From Clavibacter sp. A6099 (GTDB lineage Bacteria; Actinomycetota; Actinomycetes; Actinomycetales; Microbacteriaceae), in NCBI RefSeq assembly GCF_021919125.1, contig NZ_CP083439.1, positions 930,001-994,000 of the forward strand: a stretch of DNA of 64,000 bases. Direction: 5' to 3'. Below are positions 48,592 through 50,619 of this stretch, piece by piece. The notes under the pieces are model-generated. The model was not told where the DNA came from, did not search any database, and saw nothing but the letters and a program-made list of their open reading frames with translations. Made by a program: the position numbers and the translations under genes. Every line of letters begins with the position of its first letter. Position 1 is the first letter of the stretch.

Positions 48592-48621
48592 ACGGGCGGG
48601 CCCGAGATCCCGCCCGCCCGT
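48592..48621 (+). terminator. Terminator of mqo
   Basis: Perfect 10-bp stem ACGGGCGGGC/GCCCGCCCGT with a 10-base loop, immediately after the mqo stop and ending 12 bases before the LexA-type box of the next gene. Confidence 0.7.
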
Positions 48622-48632
48622 TCGCATCCCGT

Positions 48633-48648
48633 TCGAATATGTGTTCGA
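48633..48648. promoter_or_regulatory. LexA-type SOS box before the radical SAM gene
   Basis: TCGAAT-ATGT-GTTCGA matches the Gram-positive/actinobacterial LexA consensus TCGAAC-N4-GTTCGA at 11 of 12 fixed positions. It ends eight bases before the ATG at 48657, so bound LexA would cover the start region. Confidence 0.8.
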
Positions 48649-48656
48649 ATGGGCGC

Positions 48657-49841
48657 ATGAGATGGAGCGCGCAGAGGCTGGCCGACGCGAGCGCGGATGC
48701 GCTGCCCGGGCTCGCCCGCCTGAGCAACCTCGTGCAGAGCGTCCGCACCCCGGAGTTCCAGGGCGTCACCTTCCACGAGGTGCTCGCCAAGTCGGCCCTC
48801 AACCGCGTGCCGGGGGAGTCGAAGGTCATGCCGTACGGCTGGACCATCAACCCCTACCGCGGCTGCACGCACGCCTGCGTCTACTGCTTCGCCCGCCCCA
48901 CCCACGAGTACCTCGACCTCGACGGGGGCCGCGACTTCGACGACCAGATCGTCGTCAAGGTCAACGTCGCCGAGGTGCTGGCCCGCGAGCTCGCGAAGCC
49001 CACGTGGACCCACGACGCCGTGGCGCTCGGCACCAACACCGATCCGTACCAGCGGGCCGAGGGCCGTTACGCGCTCATGCCCGGGATCATCGCGGCGCTC
49101 GCGTCGTCCGGCACGCCGCTGTCCATCCTCACCAAGGGCACGCTCCTGCGCCGCGACCTCCCGCTGCTCGCCGAGGCGGCGAGGAGCGTGCCGGTGGACC
49201 TCGCGATGAGCATCGCCGTGCTCGACGACGACTTGCAGCAGTCGGTGGAGCCCGGAACCCCCACGACGACGGCGCGGCTCGCGACGGTCACGGCGATCCG
49301 CGACGCGGGCCTCGACTGCACCGTGTTCATGATGCCGATCCTGCCCATGCTCACGGACGGCGTGGAGCACCTCGACCACGCGCTCACGCGCATCCGCGAG
49401 GCCGGTGGCACGCGCGTCCTCTACTCCGCGCTGTACCTGAAGCCCGGCGTGAAGGAGTGGTACCTCCAGTGGCTCGAGCGCGAGCGCCCGGATCTCGTGG
49501 GCCGCTACCTCGACCTCTACGCCCGCGGCGCGTACGCCCCCCAGGCGTACCGGTCGTGGCTGAAGGCGCGCATGGATCCGCTGGTCCGCCGCCACGGGCT
49601 CGGCGGCGGGCGGGTGGATCCGCGCACCGGCGGCGTGCTGTCCCGCGCCGACCTCCCGGGCGTCGAGGCCGCACGCGCTCCGCACGGCGGCCGGCCGCGC
49701 CCCGGCTGGAGCCAGGAGGGCGCGGACAGCCGCGCCACCACGGCACGCGGTCGCGGCAGCTGGACCCAGGTGCCGGCGCCCGGCCCGCTGGTCGCCGCGG
49801 CGCTGCCCGCGGCCTCCTCGACGCAGGCCACGCTGTTCTGA
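48657..49841 (+). CDS. Radical SAM protein, SplB/Rv2578c-like, with C-terminal clamp motif
   Basis: 394 residues from ATG 48657 (the open frame extends six codons further into the LexA box). The radical SAM cluster motif CxxxCxxC is C70, C74, C77 in YRGCTHACVYCFARPTHEYL, and the sequence resembles the spore-photoproduct-lyase-like group known as Rv2578c. SAM-binding beta-barrel segments follow (LGTNTDPYQRAEG, ILTKGTLLRRDL). The protein ends in a Pro/Ala-rich tail and the final residues QATLF (390-394), which fit the QxxLF sliding-clamp-binding motif. The LexA box and clamp motif together point to DNA-damage repair; the lesion acted on is unknown. Confidence 0.88.
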   Translation: MRWSAQRLADASADALPGLARLSNLVQSVRTPEFQGVTFHEVLAKSALNRVPGESKVMPYGWTINPYRGCTHACVYCFARPTHEYLDLDGGRDFDDQIVVKVNVAEVLARELAKPTWTHDAVALGTNTDPYQRAEGRYALMPGIIAALASSGTPLSILTKGTLLRRDLPLLAEAARSVPVDLAMSIAVLDDDLQQSVEPGTPTTTARLATVTAIRDAGLDCTVFMMPILPMLTDGVEHLDHALTRIREAGGTRVLYSALYLKPGVKEWYLQWLERERPDLVGRYLDLYARGAYAPQAYRSWLKARMDPLVRRHGLGGGRVDPRTGGVLSRADLPGVEAARAPHGGRPRPGWSQEGADSRATTARGRGSWTQVPAPGPLVAAALPAASSTQATLF

Positions 49842-49911: not shown

Positions 49912-50619
49912 ATGACGAGCGAGCGCGACCCCGCACCGGGCACGCGCGACGCCTCCCGGCCGTCGACGCCGCACTCCGTGCGCGTCGGCGTGCTCATGGG
50001 CCACGAGCCCGCGCTGGACGAGGTCTGCGCGATCCTCCGCCGCCGGGCTCCCGAGATCGACGTCGTGGTGAGCACGACGGGCTGGCTCCAGCTGGTGCGC
50101 TCGCCGCGCTTCCCGACGGACGTCGTCGTCGTCGACTACGACCTCGCCGACGCCGTCAGCCTCGAGGGCCGGATCCGCTCCTGCCGCGCGGCGGGGGCGG
50201 CCGTCGTGGTCCTGTCGCGTTCGGGCACGGACGCGGTCCGTCGTCGCGTGGTCGACGCGGGGGCCGCCGCGCTGCTGACCGGGCCCGTGCCCACGGCGGA
50301 CATCGTGGCCGCAGTCCGTGCTGTCGCCGCCGGCGCGCGATCCGCGCACCGGCGCGACGACGGGACGCCGCACGAGGAGGGCGGGCCCCTCGCACGCGCC
50401 TTCGCGAGCCCCCGCCTCAGCCAGGGGGAGGAGCAGGCGCTCCGCCTCTACGTCACGGGTCGGTCGACCCTGGCCGTCGCCACCGCGATGAACGTCCAGT
50501 ACGAGACCGCGAAGACGTACCTGCGTCGCGTCCGCGCGAAGTACCGCCTCGTCGGGAGGATCGCGGGTCGCCGGGCCGACCTGATCGATCGCGCCACCGA
50601 GGACGGCTACCTTCGGTAG
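49912..50619 (+). CDS. Orphan LuxR-like regulator with pseudo-receiver
   Basis: 235 residues. After a Pro-rich N-terminal tail comes a receiver-like domain (SVRVGVLMGHEPALDEVCAI to about residue 150) with candidate aspartates in VVVVDYDLAD. The acidic pair expected after the first strand is replaced by LMGHE, so standard phosphorylation is doubtful. The C-terminal helix-turn-helix (LSQGEEQALRLYVTGRSTLA, then MNVQYETAKTYLRRVRAKY) is LuxR/NarL-like but divergent. The stop directly abuts the tdk ATG. No kinase is nearby. Its target is unknown; tdk is a candidate. Confidence 0.72.
   Translation: MTSERDPAPGTRDASRPSTPHSVRVGVLMGHEPALDEVCAILRRRAPEIDVVVSTTGWLQLVRSPRFPTDVVVVDYDLADAVSLEGRIRSCRAAGAAVVVLSRSGTDAVRRRVVDAGAAALLTGPVPTADIVAAVRAVAAGARSAHRRDDGTPHEEGGPLARAFASPRLSQGEEQALRLYVTGRSTLAVATAMNVQYETAKTYLRRVRAKYRLVGRIAGRRADLIDRATEDGYLR
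50608..50613 (+). promoter_or_regulatory. -10 element of tdk inside the preceding gene (leaderless)
   Basis: TACCTT is followed by six bases and the tdk ATG at 50620; it overlaps the last codons of the regulator gene. Confidence 0.45.

Follow-up and report, generated by a model that had tools for sequence, protein, structure and literature searches.

Rv2578c, a radical S-adenosylmethionine (SAM) protein, is said to have been placed in the LexA regulon of Mycobacterium tuberculosis by Davis et al. in 2002, and PA0069 reportedly entered that of Pseudomonas aeruginosa through the work of Cirz in 2006. A radical SAM protein is found in the core SOS regulon of Gram-positive bacteria and in Balneolaeota (PMC7739468), SOS control applies to splB in alpha- and betaproteobacteria (PMC3323433) and to COG1533 in Bacteroidetes (PMC8565304), SplB-like genes occur with ImuB-C genes (PMC3765255), and a radical SAM gene of Streptomyces venezuelae gave a LexA chromatin immunoprecipitation signal and was induced by mitomycin (PMC9380542). 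The splB of the alpha- and betaproteobacterial reports is probably the PA0069 family. We analysed an Rv2578c-family gene located in a 64,000-nucleotide (nt) stretch of Clavibacter sp. A6099 (contig NZ_CP083439.1, positions 930,001 to 994,000; hereafter the window). The S. venezuelae gene vnz_31145 is at most a possible orthologue of it. An earlier note, made from the letters of the window, had predicted an SOS-controlled radical SAM repair enzyme brought to DNA by the sliding clamp, DnaN.

The window gene encodes a 394-residue product, residues 1-315 of which match NF038135 ('Rv2578c family radical SAM protein', an NCBIfam equivalog) above its curated cut-off; Pfam Radical_SAM also matches (Table 1). 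The features on which the earlier note relied were all read directly from the window: a LexA box, TCGAATATGTGTTCGA, fitting TCGAAC-N4-GTTCGA at 11 of its 12 fixed positions (a T at position 6 deviates) and separated by 8 bases from the ATG, the CxxxCxxC motif of the Rv2578c family at C70, C74 and C77, and a C-terminus reading ...SSTQATLF. What these comparisons add is that the clamp-type tail is conserved and that, in more than one phylum, it goes together with LexA control. In the open literature searched, no report of a clamp motif on radical SAM or SplB proteins was found; it may be described elsewhere. The family had also been called uncharacterised. This holds for its reaction, since no assigned one was found in the same literature, but not for its regulation, as SOS control has already been reported for the group (PMC7739468).

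The host genome (3.33 Mb) contains the exact pattern TCGAAY-N4-GTTCGA at four places. One is the window gene, another lies 22 nt upstream of a gene for an AlkB-like 2-oxoglutarate (2OG)-Fe(II) oxygenase, and a third 46 nt before the point at which a DnaE-type polymerase gene, probably dnaE2, is called to start. The fourth (G000:C1:1670487-1670502, locus L003) has no obvious SOS gene next to it; an aldo/keto-reductase-like open reading frame (ORF) starts 195 nt away. The boxes of lexA (TCGAATGTATGTTCGG, 211 nt upstream of the called start) and recA (TCGAATATCCCTTCGA, 197 nt upstream), each written on one strand, have one mismatch to this pattern and the same TCGAAT half as the window box. The lexA, recA, AlkB-like and polymerase genes were identified by their Pfam matches. 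When one mismatch was allowed, 19 forward and 20 reverse places were found in the genome, versus 4 and 6 when the pattern was read backwards. The box at the window gene exceeds chance.

The earlier note had proposed to look for the box and the C-terminus in orthologues, and both comparisons came out strongly in favour of its reading. In the genus (18 genomes, own genome included), every copy has a box that fits at 11 of 12 positions and leaves the same gap of 8 nt. A larger set was made of the best 80 of 594 confirmed candidates, the closest being that of Clavibacter sp. VKM Ac-2872 (95% identity); its members are not independent, because it contains related species. A box of at least 9/12 ends 7, 8 or 9 nt before the start in 78 of these 80, a nearly fixed distance, and at least 10/12 is reached in 72, whereas of 7,242 random windows of equal size from the same loci, 367 reach 9/12 and 41 reach 10/12. 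Among 29 further orthologues from the phylum (one of which, L010, encodes the same protein as L077 of the 80), the distance to the start is more variable, 23 have at least 10/12, and five more have 9/12 with the exact GAAC-N4-GTTC core. This core is present within 300 nt before the called start in 31 of 35 distant orthologues, and at or inside the called start in L149 and L159. The promoter box of the window gene is one that lexA and recA of this genome also carry and that orthologues keep, as expected of a member of the LexA regulon.

Alignment of the 78 promoters on the box revealed strong conservation in a TTGAC block that occupies the positions 11 to 7 nt upstream of the box, in the box itself, and in an A/C-T directly after it, beyond which only the start-codon region follows. 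The A/C-T suggests that TCGA[A/C]T may serve as the -10 element, about 17 nt from the TTGAC block, with transcription starting on the A of the ATG or on a base adjoining it. The window promoter has a good -10 candidate and a poor -35 match. Its transcript would be leaderless, and LexA would lie between and over the promoter elements.

Table 1. Features of the Rv2578c-family locus, in window coordinates.
Feature	Position	Strand	Evidence or remark
Possible -35 element TTCGCA, weak	48621..48626	+	Inferred from TTGAC-like block in 78 promoters
LexA (SOS) box TCGAATATGTGTTCGA	48633..48648	.	Kept in 18/18 of genus, 78/80 orthologues
Putative -10 element TCGAAT, overlaps 3' half of box	48645..48650	+	Conserved A/C-T, 7-9 nt to ATG
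Rv2578c-family radical SAM gene, 394 aa (ATG at 48657, stop codon ending 49841)	48657..49841	+	NF038135, 507.3 bits (cut-off 430); PF04055
CxxxCxxC cluster motif C70, C74, C77	48864..48887	+	Invariant in 55/55 rows of alignment A2
Low-confidence, presumably flexible tail, residues 327-394	49635..49838	+	Predicted local distance difference test (pLDDT) <50; length and sequence vary in alignment
QATLF, candidate sliding-clamp binding motif, residues 390-394	49824..49838	+	Q390, L393 conservation

The catalytic domain ends near residue 320. Beyond it the tail differs in length between relatives, and its end is conserved. This C-terminal motif is not part of NF038135, because the 317-position model ends before the tail. 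In the 80-orthologue set, 74 proteins end in LF or LFx, with the Q in place in 46; a further three have a terminal Q..L whose last residue is L or I, which brings the terminal Q-motif to 49, and L112 has QLSLL within its last 20 residues. Neither an LF-type end nor a terminal Q-motif occurs among 367 other ORFs of these loci, and Q..[LMI][FLMI] occurs anywhere in the last 40 residues in 4 of the 367 (frames picked greedily by length, 200 aa or longer, and not verified as genes). By the rule used, a Q-motif is present in 27 of the 29 further phylum orthologues (L016 ends in LF without Q, and L024 has only QLALP) and in 35 of the 35 distant ones; in eleven members of these two sets it has the form Q..[LM].[LMIV]. 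Six proteins (L027, L029, L141, L152, L155, L173) carry the motif 12-21 residues before the end, in the six-residue form also known for clamp clients, e.g. EQMSLDLGDEPKRQVPKWVTEEVKD. Within the genus, QATLF terminates 15 of 18 copies; L327 runs off the fetched stretch, L325 has a different, longer C-terminal end, and L332 has an internal stop after residue 66. In the alignments, Q390 is nearly invariant in A1 (26 rows) and not in A2 (55 rows), in which L393 is nearly so. Thus a conserved motif resembling the clamp-client consensus QL(S/D)LF (PMC9690074) stands at an exposed end of the protein and is predicted to bind DnaN. The VIA-align list has no entry for the tail, to which no weight is given.

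Two known systems bear on this tail. NucS/EndoMS, an actinobacterial clamp-dependent repair nuclease, carries a terminal ..RLF after its catalytic domain; the enzymes are unrelated and comparable in the tail only. An LF end without Q has a precedent among the clamp clients of the phylum, because the NucS of the same genome ends in HSRLF and that of Streptomyces in KLRLF, named a clamp-binding motif (PMC11109965). In archaea, SplB-like genes lie beside nreB, NreB has a possible PCNA (PIP) motif, and a role in crosslink repair has been speculated in a review (PMC4929162). There the motif belongs to the neighbour of the enzyme and its target would be PCNA, whereas in the window gene it is on the enzyme itself; the archaeal case is an independent pairing of an SplB-like enzyme with a sliding clamp.

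The same pairing recurs in a sister family. The window protein scores 214.7 bits with NF033668, the PA0069 family model, below its curated cut-off of 360. The two families are alike in a homologous core and in having a LexA box paired with a QxxLF tail; PA0069 genes differ in their N-terminus and in the LexA motifs in front of them, and NF033668 extends to the last residue, tail included, whereas NF038135 does not. We sampled 11 PA0069 records of Pseudomonadota, of which five proteins were scanned, all passing the cut-off. A clamp-type tail was found in 10 of the 10 records with a readable 3' end (QLSLL, QLSLF, QGELF, QLDLF, QLRLF, QLRLL, QLTMF, QLSLL, QLRLF and QYSLF), the QLDLF sitting four residues from the protein end. 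GTTC-N7-GTTC precedes the gene in seven of nine alphaproteobacterial records, and CTGTATATATAAACAG precedes that of Aeromonas caviae; we take these to be the LexA motifs of the respective groups. The exact alpha motif occurs 9 times in the 44,871 bases of the nine alphaproteobacterial loci, 8 of these being in the upstream regions in question. A damage-type promoter and a clamp-type tail thus stay together in both families, even though neither the operators nor the tails are otherwise related in sequence. In one actinomycetotal family (f18, L174-L184; 11 fetched genes, three further f18 genomes being left out), PA0069-like genes keep the tail in 11 of 11 (QPTLFD and similar), and the one protein scanned scored 483.2 bits, over the PA0069 cut-off. 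Retention of the SOS-type box and the clamp-type tail in distantly related bacteria points to a form of fork-associated DNA repair that has yet to be described.

From the conserved sequence features and a predicted fold, we infer repression by LexA, binding to DnaN, a DNA substrate and the fork as site of action. We consider it probable that the gene encodes an SOS-induced radical SAM enzyme of spore photoproduct lyase (SPL) fold, docked on DnaN by its tail and acting on a replication-blocking lesion at the fork. The gene would be a single-gene member of the LexA regulon. LexA would occupy an operator that lies between the -35 and -10 elements and extends over the latter, and would block RNA polymerase; upon DNA damage LexA would be removed and a leaderless mRNA made. 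In the product, an SPL-fold radical SAM domain would be followed by a flexible linker of about 60 residues and a C-terminal peptide docking in the pocket of DnaN (beta clamp). The enzyme would thereby be kept on the DNA, at the replication fork or behind it, and a replication-blocking lesion could be reversed or processed there by radical chemistry. This lesion is probably not the spore photoproduct. The interpretation given in the earlier note is thus supported, by comparison only, through the box (78/80), the LF-type end (74/80) and the recurrence of the pair in PA0069. If true, a radical SAM enzyme would join the bacterial sliding-clamp clients, the lesion being perhaps one that other repair routes miss, and the conserved clamp-type motif indicates where in the cell to look.

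The fold itself raises the question of true SPL-like repair, a thymine dimer being reversed by SplB chemistry. In fold comparison, the predicted structure of the window protein has the fold of SPL (4FHC; family models PF20903, TIGR04070 and TIGR03886), with SPL above the other matches by Z, and the CxxxCxxC motif is common to both; to this extent the label 'spore-photoproduct-lyase-like' given earlier is apt. In SPL, Y98 is the relay Tyr and C140 the catalytic Cys. Y98 of the PDB SPL chain aligns with F78, a position occupied by F in 50 and Y in 5 of the 55 rows of A2; directly after the third cluster Cys, 4fhe has Y, and 4k9r, the Y98F mutant, has F. No fourth invariant Cys beyond the cluster three was found in these 55 rows, the C140 position itself not being aligned residue by residue. 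Comparing profiles with SPL-family proteins gave only a weak match (probability 80%), so the statement on Y98 and F78 rests on the PDB chain alignment. Because Y98 is replaced by F78 and there is no fourth invariant Cys, spore-photoproduct repair is not the expected reaction, and the label does not extend to it. SPL family models in NCBIfam and Pfam gave no match to the window protein at E 0.01, PF20903 has 0 matches in the same genome, and an SPL-family gene coexists with the Rv2578c-family gene in genomes G008, G023 and G074. SPL-family proteins end in RIRYAF or RVRYAF without a clamp motif (3 of 3 read), whereas the window protein ends in QATLF. We consider SPL-like repair very unlikely.

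The terminal LF peptide could also be a recognition tag for an AAA+ protease, which would make the SOS enzyme short-lived after damage, without clamp binding. The peptide is hydrophobic, stands at the very end in most members and does not always keep its Q. Yet an exposed terminal LF would not be needed in the six orthologues with an internal, six-residue motif, and PA0069 tails are canonical (QLSLF, QLRLF, QLSLL), so that we give a degradation tag little credence. Rather than reversing a lesion, the enzyme might modify a replisome protein or RNA, or mainly compete for the clamp and clear other polymerases from it. Radical SAM substrates are diverse, lipoyl synthase, MiaB and RlmN are further fold neighbours, and a short clamp peptide can compete by itself; on the other hand, the SPL fold match is above others by Z, and catalysis matters, because N65, H72, K101, D129, Y131, E135, T159, R166 and E198 are invariant in A2 together with the cluster residues. 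Such a role seems rather unlikely. Extending the reading of a clamp-docked, lesion-processing enzyme, it is possible, if somewhat doubtful, that Rv2578c and PA0069 together make up a single class of bacterial radical SAM enzymes that are SOS-induced, tethered to the clamp and able to reverse a replication-blocking lesion directly at the fork, perhaps a bulky adduct or a crosslink. AlkB, as a second reversal enzyme, would be tethered likewise in the same organisms, and the SOS response would hold an arm of 'direct reversal on the clamp' beside the translesion polymerases; in archaea the pairing would be made via NreB, a partner protein bearing the clamp motif.

Several observations weigh against the clamp-docked repair enzyme. 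The box is absent in L110 and L113 of the 80 orthologues, in L025 of the 29 and in L147 and L171 of the 35. The exact box was not found before the PA0069 genes of Methylobacterium bullatum, Pseudorhodobacter and Legionella adelaidensis, their tails notwithstanding, and neither a TCGAAC box nor a LexA-type dyad was found before any of the 11 f18 genes. The QxxLF pattern of the earlier note stood for its LF end but less for its Q, which is absent in 28 of the 74 LF-ended orthologues; L058 and L098, the latter a short frame, are without the motif. Because 5 of 21 proteins in a contrast set of distant radical SAM proteins fit the loose Q-motif rule, the motif is strongly enriched in the clade and not unique to it. 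Among distant relatives on viral contigs, taken as a contrast (80 kept, 78 with a complete 3' end), 3 of 78 have a terminal Q..L motif and 2 a terminal LF; 'phages' yielded 8 distant records. In Foldseek, lipoyl synthase ranked second, at E 2.3e-5 versus 2.0e-5 for SPL. No functional link came from the genes neighbouring the 80 loci. Finally, no feature fixes DNA as the substrate, and the binding, induction and activity of the protein are predictions made from sequence.

When ORFs were clustered around the 80 loci, no operon partner was found, because the largest cluster not overlapping the gene or its antisense frames covers just 11 of 80. Elsewhere in the window, 49912-50619 (+) encodes a protein of 235 aa whose LuxR-type and response-regulator matches are weak and fall under the Pfam cut-offs. 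Frames of about 680-720 aa were seen in L024, L025, L027, L139, L140, L155, L157 and others, a long insert splitting the family match; NF038136, the intein-containing form (cut-off 700), was reached by both proteins scanned (L024, 822.1 bits; L027, 700 bits). A prophage can occupy an SOS gene, because the integrase of phage Samy targets an Rv2578c-family gene, Streptomyces ambofaciens SAM40697_5543, as its chromosomal attachment site (PMC12924846).

The AlkB-like 2OG-Fe(II) oxygenase (PF13532; L001:849-1478, - strand, near C1:508,481), whose perfect LexA box was described above, begins with MSIAFQASLFDD, a clamp-type motif at the N-terminus. Box and N-terminal motif are kept in 18 of 18 genus copies, own genome included (L298-L315), and two of three other order-level copies have a QGSLL- or QTSLL-type start behind 11/12 boxes. 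A distant radical SAM relative on a Staphylococcus saprophyticus plasmid (L206, NZ_CP022057.1) lies beside a DNA glycosylase, an Ada-domain protein, a methylated-DNA methyltransferase and a 2OG-Fe(II) oxygenase, a neighbourhood resembling an alkylation-repair cluster.
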